From a virus, in IMG/VR virus record IMGVR_UViG_3300022562_000747, positions 117,158 through 181,157 of that record: a stretch of 64,000 nt of DNA, one strand, 5' to 3'. Numbering within the stretch: the stretch's first letter is position 1; every line of letters begins with the position of its first letter. A model generated the notes under the pieces. It searched no databases. It saw nothing but the letters and a program-made list of their open reading frames with translations, and was not told the DNA's origin. Below are positions 885 through 64,000 of this stretch, piece by piece. Made by a program: the position numbers and the translations under genes.

Positions 885-1812
885 AGATTTTGTATGGGCT
901 GAAAAATATCGTCCTGCTACAATAGATGAATGTATTCTTCCCAAAGAATTGAAAGAAACCTTTCATTCTTTTGTAAAAAACGGCGATATTCCCAATCTAT
1001 TGTTGATTGGTCCCCCGGGTTGTGGAAAAACCACCATTGCCATTGCCATGCTCAAAGAACTTGAGTGTGATTATATGGTTATTGACGGATCGCTTAAGGG
1101 GGATATGGATACCCTTCGAAATGAGATTGCTAATTTTGCTTCGACTGTCTCGTTTGTCGGCAAGCGCAAGTATATTATTCTGGATGAAGCGGATTATATC
1201 AATTGGCGCACCCAACCAGCATTGCGAAATTTTACCGAGACTTATAGCTCGAATTGTGGGTTTATCCTGACGTGTAATTACGCTAACCGCATTCTAAAGG
1301 AACTACGTTCGCGTTGTGCTAATATTGAGTTTACCATTGCCAAGGATGAACGTCCAGTTCTGGCTAAACAATTCCTGAAACGTTTGACCCAAATCCTTGA
1401 TGCCGAGGGGGTAAAATACGATAAGACTACATTGGTTGAAGTGATCACCAAGTATTTCCCCGATTGGCGGCGAATGCTCAATGAAATTCAGCGTTATGCC
1501 GTTAACGGTAAAATTGATTATGGTATTCTTACTAGCCTATCATCTATTTCAATCAAGGAATTGGTTGGATATATGAAGAATAAGGATTTTACCAAAGTAA
1601 GGCAATGGGCGGCAGAAAATTTGGCTAATGATTCTCAATCTATTTTCCGAGAGTTTTACAATGAAGCTTCAGTTTATTTTGAACCTTCCTATATTCCGGA
1701 ATTAGTTGTTACCCTTGCCAAGTATCAACATCAGGCTTTGTTTAGTGCCGATCAGGAAATCAACCTTGCAGCCTTTTTGGTTGAAGTTATGGTAGAGGCG
1801 ATCTGGAAATGA
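877..1812 (+). CDS. 44: Clamp loader large subunit (gp44)
   Basis: AAA+ ATPase of 311 residues, close to T4 gp44 (319). Starting at ATG 877, behind GGGGG, gives MNKDFVWAEKYRPATIDE, the usual WxEKYRP start of clamp loaders. Walker A is GPPGCGKTT at about residue 45, Walker B is ILDEAD at about 103, and sensor 1/arginine-finger regions (FILTCNYANR, LRSRC) follow. The protein opens the gp45 ring and loads it on primer-template DNA using ATP. The upstream in-frame ATG at 835 lies inside the preceding gene and has no good ribosome site, so it was rejected. Confidence 0.95.
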   Translation: MNKDFVWAEKYRPATIDECILPKELKETFHSFVKNGDIPNLLLIGPPGCGKTTIAIAMLKELECDYMVIDGSLKGDMDTLRNEIANFASTVSFVGKRKYIILDEADYINWRTQPALRNFTETYSSNCGFILTCNYANRILKELRSRCANIEFTIAKDERPVLAKQFLKRLTQILDAEGVKYDKTTLVEVITKYFPDWRRMLNEIQRYAVNGKIDYGILTSLSSISIKELVGYMKNKDFTKVRQWAAENLANDSQSIFREFYNEASVYFEPSYIPELVVTLAKYQHQALFSADQEINLAAFLVEVMVEAIWK

Positions 1813-3721: not shown

Positions 3722-3876
3722 TCGATAAAAGGGTCTTAAAACTATTAGAGGAATATCTTCAAAATCCTGACCTTTCGGATGATATTCGGGAACATTATCA
3801 AAAATTCGTAAAAATGGTGCAGGAAAACAAGCCTCTACCTACGGGGAAACGCCTAAAGGTTAGAAATAAGCTGTAG
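3718..3876 (+). CDS. Small helical protein (52 aa)
   Basis: ATG overlaps the upstream TGA (ATGA). It encodes 52 residues, mostly charged and helical (LLEEYLQNP...IREHYQKFVK) with a basic tail. Unknown function. It ends just at the late-type promoter before regA. Confidence 0.55.
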   Translation: MIDKRVLKLLEEYLQNPDLSDDIREHYQKFVKMVQENKPLPTGKRLKVRNKL

Positions 3877-3889
3877 AATAAATACTATA
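3877..3889 (+). promoter_or_regulatory. T4-type late promoter upstream of regA
   Basis: AATAAATACTATA matches the T4 late consensus TATAAATACTATT at 11 of 13 positions. A start site near 3896 would give a leader of about 38 bases to regA. In T4 such sites are read by RNA polymerase with gp55 and gp33, activated by the gp45 clamp. Confidence 0.6.
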
Positions 3890-3933
3890 CTGGCTATGTC
3901 GCTCATATAATAATAAAAAGAATGGAGTGAAAA

Positions 3934-47536: not shown

Positions 47537-48586
47537 ATGACGAAAAAATATAATTTTCTAGTTTTTATTGGACGATTTCAACCTTTTCATGCTGGACACC
47601 AACATGTTCTCGAAAAGGCTCTTAGTTTATCCGACAATGTAATAGTTTTGGTTGGTTCATCCAACGTTCACCGATCCGTCGAAAATCCATGGTCATTTGA
47701 AGAACGCGAAGGCATGATAAAAAATGCCTTGGTTCATAAACTTTCGGCTTATCAGGAATTAGTTATAAAACCTCTTGAAGATTTTCATAACGATACCGCT
47801 TGGGTTATGTCCGTTCAAGATATAGTCGATAAAGTCGCAAATGAATGGGAAACCCATAATACCAAGATTGGTCTAATTGGTTATGATAAGGATTCCACGT
47901 CATATTACCTAAAGATGTTTCCGACTTGGGATGTTGTCGAAATCGATACCCAATATGGAACCATCAACGCTACCCAAATCCGCGAACAGTATTTCCAAGA
48001 CGCCCCGATCATTTCCGAATTTCTTCCGGATACGGTTAGATCGTTTTTGCGAGAGTTTGCTCTTGGTGACACCTTCAAATGGGTGTTGAAAGAATACAAA
48101 TACATTCGCGATTATAAAAAGATTTGGGAAAACGCACCCTTCCCGCCGACATTCGTAACAGTTGACCCCGTTGTGGTTCAATCTGGTAATATCCTTTTGG
48201 TTACCCGAAAGGAACCTCCCTATGCTGGTTCCTTAGCATTGCCGGGAGGCTTTCTCAATGTAAACGAAACATTGGAAAACGCCGTTGTCCGGGAATTGAA
48301 AGAGGAAACCCGTATTAGAGACAATAAGGGCGAAATTCCCCCCGCTATGTTGAAATCGTTCATCACTAAGCGAGAGGTGTTTGATAACCCGAATAGATCG
48401 AAACGGGGTCGAACAATTACCCATGCCTTCCTATTCGATCTTCCCAAAAAGGATGATCTATATATGGTCAAGGGTGATGATGATGCCGAACATGCCGCAT
48501 GGTATAGCTTGGCAGAACTAAAGAATGAGGATTTCATGGAAGATCACGCTTTCATAATCCAGAAAATGTTAGAGATAAAGTTCTGA
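47537..48586 (+). CDS. Bifunctional NMN adenylyltransferase / Nudix hydrolase
   Basis: 349 residues. N-terminal nucleotidylyltransferase: FIGRFQPFHAGHQHVLEKAL (HxGH), later INATQIREQYF. C-terminal Nudix domain from about residue 200 with GGFLNVNETLENAVVRELKEET, a full Nudix box (G-x5-E-x7-REL-x-EE). The same fusion occurs in cyanobacteria and as NatV in vibriophage KVP40. The first domain makes NAD+ from NMN and ATP; the Nudix domain probably hydrolyses ADP-ribose. Works with the next gene. Confidence 0.92.
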   Translation: MTKKYNFLVFIGRFQPFHAGHQHVLEKALSLSDNVIVLVGSSNVHRSVENPWSFEEREGMIKNALVHKLSAYQELVIKPLEDFHNDTAWVMSVQDIVDKVANEWETHNTKIGLIGYDKDSTSYYLKMFPTWDVVEIDTQYGTINATQIREQYFQDAPIISEFLPDTVRSFLREFALGDTFKWVLKEYKYIRDYKKIWENAPFPPTFVTVDPVVVQSGNILLVTRKEPPYAGSLALPGGFLNVNETLENAVVRELKEETRIRDNKGEIPPAMLKSFITKREVFDNPNRSKRGRTITHAFLFDLPKKDDLYMVKGDDDAEHAAWYSLAELKNEDFMEDHAFIIQKMLEIKF

Positions 48587-48615
48587 AAGGGGTAGGGGAG
48601 TCCTATTCCTAGTAA

Positions 48616-48636
48616 ATGAGAAGGAGAAAATCTCAT
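48616..48636 (+). promoter_or_regulatory. Hairpin with the NAMPT ribosome site in the loop
   Basis: ATGAGA (48616-48621) pairs with TCTCAT (48631-48636). The loop AGGAGAAAA contains the Shine-Dalgarno AGGAG and the 3' arm covers the first two bases of the ATG at 48635. The layout mirrors the hairpin before the upstream gene. Confidence 0.6.
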
Positions 48637-50050
48637 GATGTATCGTAAAAATCCAATCCTAAACACCGATAGCTACAAGGCTTCGCACTATCTGCAATAT
48701 CCCCCGGGAACAACCAATGTATCATCGTATATTGAAAGCCGGGGCGGGGAATACGATGAAGTTGTATTCTTCGGTTTGCAAGCTTGGCTCAAGGAAAATT
48801 TGATGAATGAGGCAAGCCTAGTTACTATGGCAGATATTGACGATGCCGAGGCGGTCTTTACAGCCCATGGTGAACCTTTCAACCGTAAAGGTTGGGAGCG
48901 CATTGTAAAAGAACACAAGGGTCGATTGCCCCTAAAAATCGAGGCAGTTGATGAAGGGACTGTAATGCCCCCGAGCAACGTTTTGGTTCAGGTGTATAAT
49001 ACCGATCCGGAATTGCCTTGGCTAACGTCATATATCGAAACATCCCTGCTACGGGGAATTTGGTATCCGACTACGGTAGCAACCCGATCCCGATTTATCA
49101 AGAAATTGATCAAGCGATATCTTGATGAAACGGCGGATAATTCCGATGGTTTACCATTCAAGCTACATGATTTTGGGTTTAGGGGTGTTTCATCCTATGA
49201 ATCCGGTGTCTTGGGTGGAATGGGACACTTGGTAAACTTCCTTGGCACCGATACTGTCGGAGCATTAGAAGGGGCAAGAGCCTACTATGATGAACCAATC
49301 GCTGGTTTCTCAATTCCAGCGGCGGAACACTCGACAATTACCGCTTGGGGTAAGGAAAACGAATATAAAGCCTATGAGAATATGATTGATCGATTTGGGG
49401 GTCCGGGAAAACTTGTTGCCGTTGTCTCTGACTCTTACAATATCATGAATGCGGTCAATCAGATTTGGGGTAATGAACTACGGAATAAGATTATGAGATT
49501 TGGCGGAACGTTGGTTATCCGTCCGGACTCTGGAACTCCGTGGATTATTGTTCCGGAAATTCTCAATGCTCTAGGAGAAAAGTTTCCGACTACGGTAAAC
49601 TCCAAGGGTTATAAAATGCTTCCGGATTATCTCCGTATCATTCAGGGGGATGGTATCAATCAGGTATCAATTGGTAAAATTCTTGAAGCCGTCAAGAAAA
49701 ATGGTTGGTCCACTGATAATGTCGCCTTCGGAATGGGAGGAGCAATGTTGCAGGATTTGACTAGAGATACGTTGAGTTTTGCAATGAAAGCAAACGCAAT
49801 CCTGACGGAAGAATCAATGACCTATGAGGGACATTCCGGATGGATCGATGTTTACAAAAAGCCGGTTGGAGATAATGGAAAATCTTCGAAGGCAGGTCGA
49901 TTAGCACTGATCAATCGCAAGGGTAAGTTCGAAACGGTGCCAGTTGAAGTTGCTGACGATTATCCAAATCTCTTGAAGGTTCGTTATAATAAGTATCAGC
50001 TAGAAAATACCACTACCTTCAAGGAAATCCGCGAAAGAGCGGCATTATAA
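48635..50050 (+). CDS. nadV: Nicotinamide phosphoribosyltransferase (NAMPT/NadV)
   Basis: 471 residues, typical NAMPT length. NPILNTDSYKASHYLQYPPGT and SSYIESRGG at the start, FGFRGVSSYESGVLGGMGHL in the middle, then VVSDSYNIMNAVNQIWG, VIRPDSGTP and NVAFGMGGAMLQ are conserved NAMPT blocks. Makes NMN from nicotinamide and PRPP, the first step of NAD+ salvage; the preceding gene completes it. This gene pair corresponds to the NAMPT-NMNAT route (NARP2) shown in phages to restore NAD+ during host immune depletion. Confidence 0.95.
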   Translation: MMYRKNPILNTDSYKASHYLQYPPGTTNVSSYIESRGGEYDEVVFFGLQAWLKENLMNEASLVTMADIDDAEAVFTAHGEPFNRKGWERIVKEHKGRLPLKIEAVDEGTVMPPSNVLVQVYNTDPELPWLTSYIETSLLRGIWYPTTVATRSRFIKKLIKRYLDETADNSDGLPFKLHDFGFRGVSSYESGVLGGMGHLVNFLGTDTVGALEGARAYYDEPIAGFSIPAAEHSTITAWGKENEYKAYENMIDRFGGPGKLVAVVSDSYNIMNAVNQIWGNELRNKIMRFGGTLVIRPDSGTPWIIVPEILNALGEKFPTTVNSKGYKMLPDYLRIIQGDGINQVSIGKILEAVKKNGWSTDNVAFGMGGAMLQDLTRDTLSFAMKANAILTEESMTYEGHSGWIDVYKKPVGDNGKSSKAGRLALINRKGKFETVPVEVADDYPNLLKVRYNKYQLENTTTFKEIRERAAL

Positions 50051-60862: not shown

Positions 60863-61031
60863 TTACGGGGTAAGTATAGCCCAACCGCTGGTAGTACGAT
60901 GGCGATAACTTTGCCATCCGGTAGGATTAGACGATGATCCTATTGTCCTTACGGGGTAAGTAAGGGGTGGTTTCGCTAGGGGTTATTTTCATCATGGATA
61001 AATCTTTATCCAAGGATTGAAAGAGTTTATG
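60863..61031 (+). ncRNA. Structured leader of the tRNA transcript
   Basis: Contains TTACGGGGTAAGTA twice (near 60865 and 60950), plus stems GATGGC/GCCATC, TAGGAT/ATCCTA and GGATAA/TTATCC (loop ATCT). No protein frame. Probably processed 5' leader or a separate RNA. Confidence 0.5.
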
Positions 61032-61156
61032 GGGATGTAGCTTAAGGTGGTAAAGCATCTCAACATTTATTCTTCTAATGATATCGTAGAAGAACCGTCA
61101 GATATCGGGCGGTTGTTTAGAAAGATGAGGGTTCGACTCCCTCCATTCTCTGCCCA
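61032..61156 (+). tRNA. tRNA-like gene with a large insertion
   Basis: 5' acceptor GGGGATG pairs with CATTCTC (61144-61150, two G-T pairs). The D-arm GCTT-AAGGTGGTA-AAGC and T-arm GAGGG-TTCGACT-CCCTC are canonical. Between D- and T-arms are about 70 bases instead of about 23, including TTCTTCTA/TAGAAGAA and CCG/CGG hairpins, so the anticodon cannot be assigned. Too short for a group I intron. CCA is not placed directly after the discriminator (TGCCCA). Confidence 0.5.
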
Positions 61157-61213
61157 TAGAGAAAGAACGAGGCGTCAGCACACGCCTACAATTCAATTCT
61201 TAGATAAAGATTT

Positions 61214-61288
61214 GCCACCGAAACATTGGTAGTGATGTACCGGTTTCGTAAACTGGAAAACCAAGTCCGACTCTTGGCGGTGGCTCCA
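61214..61288 (+). tRNA. tRNA-Thr(CGU)
   Basis: Acceptor GCCACCG/CGGTGGC, D-arm CATT/GATG with GG in the loop, anticodon arm CCGGT-TTCGTAA-ACTGG giving CGT, T-arm CCAAG-TCCGACT-CTTGG (second T-loop base is C), CCA encoded. Confidence 0.85.
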
Positions 61289-61289
61289 T

Positions 61290-61364
61290 GCCTCTTAAGC
61301 ATATGTGGTGATGCAGCCGCCTTGTAAGCGGCAGAATCAGATTCGATTTCTGAAAGAGGCTCCA
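61290..61364 (+). tRNA. tRNA-Thr(UGU)
   Basis: Acceptor GCCTCTT/AAGAGGC, D-arm GCAT/ATGC, anticodon arm GCCGC-CTTGTAA-GCGGC giving TGT, T-arm TCAGA-TTCGATT-TCTGA, CCA encoded. Confidence 0.93.
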
Positions 61365-61370
61365 ATTCAT

Positions 61371-61445
61371 GCTCCCTTCTTCTATCAGCTAGGAACCCCG
61401 GCTTTCAACCGGGAAAAACCGGGGCAGCACCGGTAGGGAGTGCCA
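61371..61445 (+). tRNA. tRNA-Glu(UUC) with GGCAGCA T-loop
   Basis: Acceptor GCTCCCT/AGGGAGT, anticodon arm CCCGG-CTTTCAA-CCGGG giving TTC, T-stem ACCGG/CCGGT, CCA encoded. The T-loop is GGCAGCA instead of TTCRANY, and the D-loop ATCAGCTA lacks the GG that normally docks with it. Otherwise a complete tRNA. Confidence 0.8.
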
Positions 61446-61450
61446 ATAAC

Positions 61451-61524
61451 GTCGCAATAGGCTAGTGGCAGACCATATCCTTGGTACGGATAGAACCATG
61501 GTTCGATTCCATGTTGCGGCACCA
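61451..61524 (+). tRNA. tRNA-Thr(GGU)
   Basis: Acceptor GTCGCAA/TTGCGGC (one G-T), D-arm GGCT/GACC (one mismatch), anticodon arm TATCC-TTGGTAC-GGATA giving GGT, T-arm CATGG-TTCGATT-CCATG, CCA encoded. Confidence 0.88.
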
Positions 61525-61537
61525 ATTCAAGAAAATA

Positions 61538-61561
61538 TAAACATTGGTTGCAGCCAATGTT
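61538..61561 (+). terminator. Stem-loop between tRNA genes
   Basis: AAACATTGG / CCAATGTTT perfect 9-bp stem with six-base loop; no good T run after it, so it may be a processing or weak termination signal. Confidence 0.4.
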
Positions 61562-61617
61562 TCTTATCAGTTGCCTTTTACCTTGACCTAACTCTGCAAA
61601 GTTTTTGAGGTAAACTG

Positions 61618-61689
61618 TTTCATATCGTCTAACGGAGAGGACACCGCCCTTTTGCGGCGGGAATATGGGTTCGAGTCCCATTGTGATCT
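61618..61689 (+). tRNA. tRNA with anticodon UUU, Glu-like body, defective acceptor
   Basis: D-arm GTCT-AACGGAGA-GGAC, anticodon arm CCGCC-CTTTTGC-GGCGG giving TTT (Lys), T-arm ATGGG-TTCGAGT-CCCAT. The TCGTCTAACGGAG...GGACACCGCCCTTT body resembles bacterial tRNA-Glu, where the anticodon is TTC. The acceptor TTTCATA/TGTGATC has two mismatches at its end and no CCA is encoded. May be a decaying gene or one needing 3' repair. Confidence 0.6.
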
Positions 61690-61817
61690 GCAATTGATCG
61701 GTTTCAAATTAGGAGTTCCTGTAGCTATTACGTGGAACGAAATGCGGGCAGTTATAGCTTCCCCGGCTCCTAAAATGCGCTGGACCCGACGCGGTAAAAT
61801 ATCGGGAACAAATTTAT
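61690..61817 (+). other. Gap between tRNAs holding a tRNA-sized stem-loop element
   Basis: No protein gene. TTAGGAG (61709) pairs with CTCCTAA (61767-61773), a 7-bp stem enclosing 51 bases with AGCTAT/ATAGCT and GTTCC/GGAAC pairings. The size fits a tRNA-like RNA but no anticodon or T-arm can be assigned. Confidence 0.3.
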
Positions 61818-61900
61818 GGGCAACTGGCATATGGAAACTGGTACACCTAACGGTTTTAGAAACCGCGCTTTTGAGAGTTCGAGTCTCTCGTTGCCTACCA
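61818..61900 (+). tRNA. tRNA-Leu(UAG)
   Basis: Acceptor GGGCAAC/GTTGCCT, anticodon loop TTTAGAA giving TAG, T-arm GAGAG-TTCGAGT-CTCTC, CCA encoded. The region between acceptor and anticodon stem is about 25 bases and the variable region only about 6, unlike normal class II tRNA-Leu. Confidence 0.8.
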
Positions 61901-61904
61901 ATAC

Positions 61905-61989
61905 GTGGCTGTGGGATAAGTTGAAATAGGAACACACAGCGGGCTTAAAATCCGTTCCTTTGCGAGTTCGAGTCTCGCCAGCCACACCA
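61905..61989 (+). tRNA. tRNA-Leu(UAA)
   Basis: Acceptor GTGGCTG/CAGCCAC, anticodon arm GCGGG-CTTAAAA-TCCGT giving TAA, T-arm GCGAG-TTCGAGT-CTCGC, CCA encoded. Expanded D region (27 bases) and short variable region, like the two neighbouring Leu tRNAs. Confidence 0.85.
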
Positions 61990-61994
61990 ATAAT

Positions 61995-62079
61995 GTCGTT
62001 GTGGGCTAATTCGAAATAGGCACACGTTACTGCCTCAAAAGCAGCGCCTTTGCGGGTTCGAATCCCGCCAACGACACCA
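61995..62079 (+). tRNA. tRNA-Leu(CAA)
   Basis: Acceptor GTCGTTG/CAACGAC, anticodon arm CTGC-CTCAAAA-GCAG giving CAA, T-arm GCGGG-TTCGAAT-CCCGC, CCA encoded. D region 27 bases, short variable region. Similar to the preceding gene, probably by duplication. Confidence 0.87.
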
Positions 62080-62083
62080 ATAA

Positions 62084-62157
62084 GGCTCATTAGTTTAAAA
62101 GTAGAACGTTGCTTTTACACGGCAATTGAAGCGGGGCAGTACCGTTATGAGCTACCA
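62084..62157 (+). tRNA. tRNA-Val(UAC) with GGCAGTA T-loop
   Basis: Acceptor GGCTCAT/ATGAGCT, D-stem GTTT/GAAC with loop AAAAGTA (no GG), anticodon arm TTGCT-TTTACAC-GGCAA giving TAC, T-stem AGCGG/CCGTT with loop GGCAGTA, CCA encoded. Second member of the unusual T-loop set. Confidence 0.78.
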
Positions 62158-62166
62158 ATTAAGTGC

Positions 62167-62218
62167 TTGACATGCTCTCAAGAGCATGTTATAGTGCTTA
62201 GTATGCTCGCAAGAGCAT
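62167..62218 (+). promoter_or_regulatory. Promoter P4 with duplicated palindrome
   Basis: TTGACA, 17 bases, TATAGT (62190-62195). ATGCTCTCAAGAGCAT (62172-62187) fills the spacer and ATGCTCGCAAGAGCAT (62203-62218) lies at the expected RNA 5' end, 31 bp away. The first could be a repressor operator; the second also forms a GCAA tetraloop hairpin. Confidence 0.82.
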
Positions 62219-63160
62219 TATAAAACACAAGTAAACTTTATAACTTTGGCGGTTTAGCGTCGTCAGGATAGCTTGGAGTGATCCAAGTTAAAGCTGTGTA
62301 TCCTATTAAACAGCGCCCGCAAGGGTCCATCTAAACAAGCCTAGTCGTCCCCGCGAGGGGCTATCAGGGATGATGGTAGTATATATGACGACAAGGTGTG
62401 GTCCGAAAGGATAGGGGTAAGCCTCTGCGAAAGCAAGCCCAACCTAATATCCCGCAAGGATAGCCACACATGCAAACTTGTCTAGTAGGTATCGACAATA
62501 GGTAGTTACAGTAATCCGATGCTTCGCGGCAAAGGGTGGGTAGCATGATCTTCGGGAGAACGGACCCCGCTATTCGGAGGGGAGACGTATATCCTAGAGT
62601 CAGGTTGAGTAACTCGCAAGGTGAAAAACAGTTGGTGTGTTGTATTTTGTTTCCCAAAAGGAAGCGAAGCAACCGAACCAGCACATCAAAATAGGTTTAG
62701 AAAAAATGATCCATGGCGGATCATCTGCATATGAAGCAGAAAGGATTGGTTCGATTCCAATTTTTTTCACCAGAGAAAACGCAAAGTCTGGTTCGATGTT
62801 GATTGAGAAATGGTCTAAACCAATGGCGGCTTGCCGTAACATTGGCGATGAAGCCCCGCAAGGGTGAAGTTGTTATTTGATCGAATTATCCTAATGGGTT
62901 AGCGCCCATGAATAGCTCGCAAGGCTAAGGGTGAGATGATCGGTGAGTAGATCAACATGACAAGTGAAACGCTACACTTCAAAAAAAGCGACCTTGTTAC
63001 ACTACATGCCGAAACGGTATGTGGATGAAAGGGAACCCTTATAGTGCGCTAGTCGCCGCACCCGAGCAGGGTGGGGGATAATCCTAGAAGGTGTAACGCT
63101 AAACCCTGTAGTCTCAAGGGTCTAAAATATTCTCCAAGCACATTACAATGTGTTTCGACA
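62202..63160 (+). ncRNA. Large ornate structured RNA with embedded tRNA (GOLLD/ROOL-like candidate)
   Basis: About 950 bases with no plausible gene, starting at promoter P4 and ending before a tRNA. Many short stems closed by stable loops: ATGCTC-GCAA-GAGCAT (62203), CCC-GCAA-GGG (62317), CCCC-GCGA-GGGG (62350), GGTCC-GAAA-GGAT (62400), TGC-GAAA-GCA, TATCC-CGCAA-GGATA, CCC-GCAA-GGG (62856), TAGC...GCTA with GCAA, CCG-AAA-CGG inside ACAT/ATGT (63002). A complete tRNA (62700-62772) sits inside. Giant phage RNAs of the GOLLD and ROOL classes are this size, lie near tRNAs and, for GOLLD, can contain a tRNA; class membership is not proven. Confidence 0.72.
62700..62772 (+). tRNA. tRNA embedded in the large RNA, anticodon AUG (His-type)
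   Basis: Acceptor GAAAAAA/TTTTTTC (six A-T pairs), D-arm GATC-CATGGCG-GATC, anticodon arm TCTGC-ATATGAA-GCAGA giving ATG, T-arm ATTGG-TTCGATT-CCAAT, discriminator A, CCA encoded. An A at position 34 and the lack of an extra G at the 5' end are unusual for tRNA-His. The CCA lies at the start of a possible CCAGA/TCTGG stem of the surrounding RNA. Confidence 0.85.
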
Positions 63161-63166
63161 ATATAA

Positions 63167-63241
63167 GCGTCTTTAATTCATTGGCAGAATGCTTGTTCGA
63201 CACGCAAGATGTAGAAAGTTCGATTCTTTCAAGACGCACCA
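63167..63241 (+). tRNA. tRNA-Val(GAC)
   Basis: Acceptor GCGTCTT/AAGACGC, D-arm ATTC-ATTGGCA-GAAT, anticodon arm CTTGT-TCGACAC-GCAAG giving GAC with C instead of T at position 33, T-arm GAAAG-TTCGATT-CTTTC, CCA encoded. If the closing T-G pair is ignored, CGA (Ser) is another reading. Confidence 0.78.
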
Positions 63242-63245
63242 TTTC

Positions 63246-63258
63246 GATAAATATATGT
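63246..63258 (+). promoter_or_regulatory. Possible late promoter
   Basis: GATAAATATATGT keeps the ATAAATA core of the late consensus. It precedes GTAGGAGA and ATG 63282. Confidence 0.4.
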
Positions 63259-63281
63259 AGTTCCATTGTAGGAGAACATAT

Positions 63282-63446
63282 ATGTTAGAAGGATTAATCG
63301 GATTTGCTATCGGGGCAATTGTTATTGGTGTTATTGCCAATCGCCGCCCTCAATGGTTTGCATCTATTGTAACCATGGCAAATAAAATCGATGATAAAGT
63401 CAACGCTGGTGTTACCAGTATAGTTGAAAAAGTTCAAAACAAATAA
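63282..63446 (+). CDS. Small membrane protein inside the tRNA cluster (54 aa)
   Basis: MLEGLIGFAIGAIVIGVIAN is one glycine-rich transmembrane helix, followed by an amphipathic segment. Strong GTAGGAGA ribosome site. The stop codon TAA directly abuts the first base of the next tRNA. A holin-like role is possible given size and topology but unproven. Confidence 0.6.
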   Translation: MLEGLIGFAIGAIVIGVIANRRPQWFASIVTMANKIDDKVNAGVTSIVEKVQNK

Positions 63447-63520
63447 TGTAGTGACCGCAGAAGCGACGAGAGCGCCCGATAAGCGTTTGCAAGAAGGGGC
63501 AGTACCTTCCACTACAACCA
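63447..63520 (+). tRNA. tRNA-Ile(GAU) with GGCAGTA T-loop
   Basis: Acceptor TGTAGTG/CACTACA, anticodon arm AGCGC-CCGATAA-GCGTT giving GAT with C at position 33, T-stem GAAGG/CCTTC with loop GGCAGTA, CCA encoded. The D region does not form a canonical arm (a CGC-AGAA-GCG mini-hairpin is possible) and has no GG. Third member of the unusual set. Confidence 0.7.
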
Positions 63521-63524
63521 ATAT

Positions 63525-63601
63525 GGACCCGTGACCGGAACTGGCTACGGCGCGGACTTTTAATCCGTTTTATGAGAGTTCGAGTCTCTCCGGGTCTGCC
63601 A
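63525..63601 (+). tRNA. tRNA-Lys(UUU)
   Basis: Acceptor GGACCCG/CGGGTCT, D-arm with CCG/CGG and GG in the loop, anticodon arm GCGGA-CTTTTAA-TCCGT giving TTT, T-arm GAGAG-TTCGAGT-CTCTC, CCA encoded. Confidence 0.92.
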
Positions 63602-63611
63602 ATATAAGGAG

Positions 63612-63658
63612 AGCATATTATGATAAAAAGAAAGGACAGCATATTATGATAAAAAGAA
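63612..63658 (+). repeat. Short direct repeat at a gene start
   Basis: A 21-base unit (AGCATATTATGATAAAAAGA plus A) occurs twice, 26 bases apart, at 63612 and 63638. Both copies contain an ATG; the first starts a nine-codon frame, the second starts the 63646 gene. Confidence 0.8.
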
Positions 63659-63924
63659 CAAGAATTCTCACTCAGAGATATCAGTTTGATGACTGGCCTT
63701 CAAATAAATCATTCGAAGCAATTGAGTATGATGCATCAGGCCAATTGTTTTGGATTGCATACGACGAAAGTCCTATTCAAGTAATCTTTGAACAGCGATC
63801 AGCAGAATGTTGTTTTCCAATCGATATTAATATGGCAGAACATATATTCGAAACGTTTGGAAGAAAACTTGATCGATCAAAATTACCAAAAGAAGTTTTA
63901 CATAGTAAAATGTGTATAAGTTAA
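63646..63924 (+). CDS. Hypothetical protein between tRNAs
   Basis: 92 residues. MIKRTRILTQRYQFDDWPSN, then FEAIEYDASGQLFWIAYDES. No family recognised. The duplicated start may affect initiation: the upstream copy has AAGGAGAG, the real start has AAAGGACAG. Confidence 0.55.
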   Translation: MIKRTRILTQRYQFDDWPSNKSFEAIEYDASGQLFWIAYDESPIQVIFEQRSAECCFPIDINMAEHIFETFGRKLDRSKLPKEVLHSKMCIS

Positions 63925-63925
63925 T

Positions 63926-64000
63926 ACACGCATGGCTTGATGGGGAAGCAATGGACTCTTAATCCATGAAATGCGAGTTCGAATCTCGCTGCGTGTACCA
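63926..64000 (+). tRNA. tRNA-Lys(CUU)
   Basis: Acceptor ACACGCA/TGCGTGT, D-arm GCTT/AAGC, anticodon arm ATGGA-CTCTTAA-TCCAT giving CTT, T-arm GCGAG-TTCGAAT-CTCGC, CCA ends exactly at the window edge. Confidence 0.93.

Follow-up and report, generated by a model that had tools for sequence, protein, structure and literature searches.

Among GOLLD RNAs, the env-38 member is 833 nt long and assembles into a 14-copy cage, where nucleotides 497-538 form a disordered loop inside (PMC12286853), and phage tRNAs are sometimes found in this linker loop (PMC12286853). About 800 GOLLDs are listed in PMC12286853. Traits of GOLLD include a conserved 3' domain, a structured but less conserved 5' domain of about 400 nt and an expression that rises in the course of lysis. 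GOLLD present in Mycobacterium tRNA arrays carries a pseudo-tRNA, for which Northern blots in M. aubagnense revealed no separate product (PMC6582537). In a prophage of L. brevis, GOLLD was dispensable for phage production, according to work cited in PMC7567579. ROOL, also a giant phage RNA found beside tRNAs, likewise forms an RNA cage.

The RNA considered here lies within a stretch of 64,000 nt, hereafter the window, corresponding to positions 117,158 to 181,157 of the IMG/VR record IMGVR_UViG_3300022562_000747. This viral record of 181 kb encodes a DNA polymerase sharing 43-45% identity with its counterparts in T4-like cyanophages, and no near DNA relative was found in INPHARED with the 25 kb of the phage searched. 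Nine tRNAs were called in 61214-64000. The window further contains two tRNAs uncalled by ARAGORN (62084-62157 and 63445-63520; Val(UAC)- and Ile(GAU)-like), which have 5-bp T-stems and a T-loop reading GGCAGTA instead of TTCRANY; Gly(UCC)-like tRNAs with the same T-loop occur at two GOLLD loci gathered for comparison (L046 near 3840-3920; L193 at 1012-1083, minus strand). The features of the RNA are as follows, in coordinates of the window.

62167 to 62195, plus strand: promoter-like site of the sigma-70 type (TTGACA-17-TATAGT, extended TG), proposed on consensus match alone, with a predicted start near 62202
62204 to 62217, plus strand: leader hairpin TGCTC-GCAA-GAGCA, just 3' of the predicted start
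62240 to 62629, plus strand: GOLLD 5' domain (the cap domain in the env-38 structure), which aligns and covaries with other GOLLDs
62339 to 62503, plus strand: long-range helix of the 5' domain, pairing 62339-62346 with 62494-62503 and enclosing much of the domain
62630 to 63120, plus strand: GOLLD 3' domain (RF02032 model positions 1-416)
62634 to 62687, plus strand: first hairpin of the 3' domain (helices 13 and 14), forming the 5' border of the linker
62688 to 62779, plus strand: linker of the 3' domain, i.e., the variable loop in the cage lumen of the env-38 structure (Rfam alignment; PMC12286853)
62700 to 62772, plus strand: embedded tRNA with anticodon AUG at 62731-62733 and encoded CCA (ARAGORN, Rfam)
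62902 to 62903, plus strand: GC dinucleotide within a loop aligned to L21a, where bridge B8 has its palindromic kissing loop (model positions 238-239)

When all Rfam models were searched with cmscan, 62630-63120 matched GOLLD (RF02032) over the full model, positions 1-416, with 180.1 bits for a gathering score of 150 (E 6.5e-50), and the same search found a single GOLLD copy in the whole 181-kb record. The original prediction had hesitated between a divergent GOLLD or ROOL member and a new class, and had proposed the covariance models of GOLLD, ROOL, HEARO, OLE and raiA as a check; GOLLD scored above its cut-off and the four others were unmatched up to an E of 1. Although the RNA resembles ROOL in its size, its phage setting and its tRNA neighbours (PMC12286853), it is barely conceivable that it is a ROOL or a new giant class, since the full GOLLD model is matched over the cut-off, ROOL is unmatched and the upstream region is homologous to the GOLLD 5' domain. 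As such, the GOLLD part of the prediction stood, ROOL was dropped and a new class was rejected. Divergence was rightly anticipated as well, considering the score of 180.1 bits over a gathering score of 150, the covarying 5' domain and the long branch of the window copy in the GOLLD tree (0.67 changes per site), the highest identity to any gathered GOLLD being 59%. Regarding the extent originally given, 62202-63160, a giant RNA is indeed present but an end exactly at 63160 is not upheld, the Rfam model stopping at 63120.

The Rfam model covers the 3' domain of GOLLD only, and the region upstream was thus considered through an alignment of 62205-62690 with the corresponding stretch of 19 other GOLLDs (n = 20). 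The RNAalifold consensus comprises 68 pairs, 47 of which show compensatory changes, and its cells are paired at 94.6%, versus 74.8% in shuffled alignments and about 40% when partners are slid; none of 500 shuffles reached any of five covariation measures. As the consensus structure was derived from the very alignment tested, the slid control is biased in its favour; the shuffles are non-phylogenetic. The long-range helix corresponds to helices 6 and 7, paired at 100% and 98%, respectively, and of the 49 pairs in the 5'-domain consensus, 44 are formed in the window. Alignment and covariation with other GOLLDs, the second check originally proposed, thus identify the region upstream as the GOLLD 5' domain and not a new element.

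Several features noticed at first reading were confirmed. The promoter-like site matches the sigma-70 consensus at 11 of 12 positions, all other sites in 61000-64000 scoring 9, in agreement with the claim of a consensus promoter proper to the RNA. At least nine tetraloop-closed helices had been announced, and 11 GNRA-closed helices of at least 3 bp were counted in 62202-63160; 500 dinucleotide shuffles gave 2.3 on average and never more than 7, and no other 959-base stretch of the window exceeded 6. The fold energy of 62202-63160 is -316.5 kcal/mol (z -5.4, with 0 of 20 shuffles equally low), and the 5' half folded separately gives a z of -2.4. No credible gene had been seen and none emerged, the ORFs overlapping the RNA reaching at most 106 aa and neither of the two ORFs tested having a Pfam match.

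Respective to env-38, the window RNA shares a 3' domain matched over the whole model, a 5' domain of comparable size (about 390-430 nt here versus 420 nt), location in a phage tRNA island and the presence of a tRNA in the linker, as reported for some GOLLD members; it differs by its divergence (at most 59% identity), by the completeness of its CCA-bearing linker tRNA and in being known from sequence alone. In GOLLD RNAs, loop L21a of bridge B8 bears a dinucleotide palindrome, either GC or CG (PMC12286853), which is present in the window as GC at 62902-62903, nucleotides 656-657 of env-38 having been equated with model positions 238-239 by counting in the present analysis. Since tRNAs within GOLLD are already in the literature, the window RNA is a divergent further member of known GOLLD. 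Membership, the two domains and the linker position of the tRNA can be read from the sequence itself, and the RNA is very probably a full-length GOLLD of about 880-920 nt, encoded by a T4-like phage and accommodating a complete tRNA in its 3'-domain linker.

This embedded tRNA (62700-62772) exhibits a complete cloverleaf with 7 of 7 acceptor pairs, A73 and CCA; it bears the anticodon ATG according to ARAGORN and scores 44.8 bits with the Rfam tRNA model, which bears out the full tRNA with encoded CCA originally seen in the middle of the RNA. Respective to the RF02032 model, it constitutes an insertion after the first 3' hairpin. Identity of tRNA-His relies on a GUG anticodon and on C73, which pairs with G-1. 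The embedded tRNA lacks these features, having A34 (AUG anticodon) and A73 in its sequence. The linker tRNA of another locus, L189, has the same AUG anticodon and CCA.

Like the window copy, GOLLDs of Mycobacterium arrays (prophiT49-2, L140) reside inside a tRNA cluster and have a tRNA-like element in the linker, but the latter is a pseudo-tRNA, without CCA in prophiT49-2, whereas the acceptor end is intact in the window. A tRNA occupies the same slot in GOLLDs of Phaeobacter phage MD18, DSS3_MAL1 and Mesorhizobium phage Cp1R7A-A1 (annotated Arg, Arg and Leu, respectively), with anticodons different from the AUG of the window; unlike in the latter, the acceptor is imperfect and CCA is missing in MD18 and Cp1R7A-A1. 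In public records of MD18, Phosso, DSS3_MAL1, DSS3P8, Cp1R7A-A1 and prophiT49-2, GOLLD itself is unannotated though RF02032 is matched over the cut-off (loci L074, L075, L076, L137, L138 and L139). The GOLLD of DSS3P8 lacks a tRNA in its linker.

GOLLD relatives were gathered through sequence patterns outside the linker together with BLAST, and confirmed with the Rfam model. Besides the copy of the window, 62 GOLLDs were found, three of them below the gathering score, and clustering at 95% resulted in 55 distinct GOLLDs, among them that of the window and a weak tandem copy, in a sample leaning to GOLLDs that resemble those behind the search patterns. Contig G097 has a tandem pair of GOLLDs (L191 and L196), separated by about 550 bases, of which one is strong with 178 bits and the other degenerate with 69 bits. 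Two loci from the pattern scan of genome contigs were discarded as chance matches, their genomes lacking GOLLD at E 0.001. GOLLD was also absent from all 44 searched records sharing the phage gene NAMPT and thus does not travel with it; in the window, NAMPT adjoins an NMNAT-Nudix fusion gene (47537-50050), an NAD salvage pair of a type that phages may use against NAD-depleting defences. Other RNAs were observed near GOLLD, namely a freshwater-1 RNA (L145, 812-874; 63.8 bits, below cut-off) and a skipping-rope RNA (L154, 1101-1235, minus strand; 47.1 bits, above cut-off). In phages MD18 and DSS3P8, as well as in the L162 contig, GOLLD is directly followed on its 3' side by a permuted tmRNA gene of the alpha type, located as follows.

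L078, 875 to 1290, minus strand: permuted tmRNA gene
L142, 2105 to 2491: permuted tmRNA gene
L162, 1008 to 1414, minus strand: permuted tmRNA gene

An Rfam tRNA match was present in the linker slot of 39 of the 55 distinct GOLLDs, to which L080 can be added by ARAGORN call only; elsewhere within the 3' domain of the surveyed GOLLDs, ARAGORN called no tRNA. The linker tRNA is missing from L160, L142, L143-145, L164-166 and others, the three highest-scoring GOLLDs (L143-145) having short linkers, and is therefore not essential to GOLLD. Its presence requires seven changes on the tree, at least four on well-supported branches, meaning the insert was gained or lost repeatedly; L160 and L163, with cores 91% alike, differ in this respect. 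Both the linker and the 5' domain evolve faster than the 3' core.

Such turnover, together with the 7/7 acceptor pairs and CCA of the window copy, is what would be expected if an ordinary tRNA gene of the island hitchhiked in a permissive loop of GOLLD, from which RNase P and RNase Z would free it for translation, with GOLLD operating as two pieces. This explanation is nevertheless doubtful when the linker tRNAs are considered as a whole. Against it, 29 of 33 full-length linker tRNAs are devoid of CCA, and in 26 of the 33 the acceptor stem is imperfectly paired. In other words, CCA is encoded in only 4 of the 33 (the window, L167, L189 and L193) versus 101 of 120 ordinary tRNAs from the same loci (Fisher p 1.6e-14), and the acceptor stem is perfect in 7 of 33 versus 109 of 120 (Fisher p about 1e-14), though these 120 controls were taken by hand among the matches listed, favouring higher scores, which may flatter them somewhat. 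These tests are phylogenetically non-independent, but the loss of CCA still gives p 0.0005 when counted by about 11 lineages. Considering the nearest neighbour by body identity, 31 of 36 linker tRNAs were closest to another linker tRNA and the other five to a tRNA from a different locus, their own locus never supplying the nearest one, and anticodons change inside lineages, which further speaks against ordinary hitchhiking genes, as do A34 and A73, unsuited to tRNA-His, in the window copy. The latter belongs to the five, with 0.75 to an ordinary tRNA from a different locus versus 0.72 to the best linker tRNA, and may be either a releasable tRNA or a tRNA-like domain whose end has stayed intact. 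Anticodons for Lys, Asn and Arg(UCU) fill 25 of 36 linker slots versus 37 of 343 ordinary tRNAs, but many of these linker tRNAs share descent and the excess by lineage is only about 5 of 11 (p 0.004).

With most linker tRNAs lacking acceptor tips and CCA, and some GOLLDs lacking the insert, a decaying relic without role could also be envisaged. It is, however, improbable, because the decay of a relic would affect every arm to the same degree, and the arms are unequally decayed. In the 39 linker tRNAs, pairing amounts to 98% in the D stem, 99.5% in the anticodon stem and 96% in the T stem, with many types of compensatory change, and U33 is kept in 36 of 39; pairing drops to 74% in the acceptor, where the outer three pairs are the worst paired.

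The presence in most GOLLDs sampled of an insert shaped like a tRNA, the end of which is usually damaged, suggests that the tRNA shape itself matters. As linker tRNAs are mostly closer to each other than to the tRNAs of their own phage, the linker would usually hold an inherited tRNA-like domain. The simplest account would then be that many large phages have, in the linker of GOLLD, a tRNA-like domain inherited with GOLLD, whose tRNA arms appear to be under selection, the acceptor end being unselected or selected against. The latter may apply because GOLLD would be severed if RNase P and RNase Z acted on the insert, a bisection that acceptor decay in most relatives would stop. In the part of the literature covered, no prior statement of this wide use of the slot, with decayed ends and preserved arms, was found, and earlier mention is possible.

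During infection, the window RNA would probably be transcribed from its own promoter and self-assemble into a closed cage enclosing the linker and its tRNA, with one linker tRNA per subunit on the inside, as extrapolated from the in vitro assembly of env-38; the window copy being on a long branch, its stoichiometry may differ. Its intact tRNA end would make excision possible, leaving a nicked GOLLD, unless it is shielded inside the cage. The tRNA fold might be retained because it is bound by host proteins or other factors that bind or cut tRNAs, though this is put forward with reserve. Equally tentative is the proposal that the tRNA-like domain of GOLLD, freed from the demands of charging and processing, is kept for its elbow and anticodon arm as a bait or docking site in the cage, the conceivable partners, as part of the same speculative reading, being tRNA-targeting host factors such as anticodon nucleases. 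Some defences do cut tRNA-Lys, e.g., AriB of PARIS (PMC11455837), which makes a bait a reasonable working hypothesis and nothing beyond that.

In the cage structure of 2025, the lumen is empty but for the disordered linker, and the role of GOLLD has been unexplained since its discovery. If this linker is usually a tRNA-like domain selected for its shape and not for charging, the function of GOLLD becomes testable.
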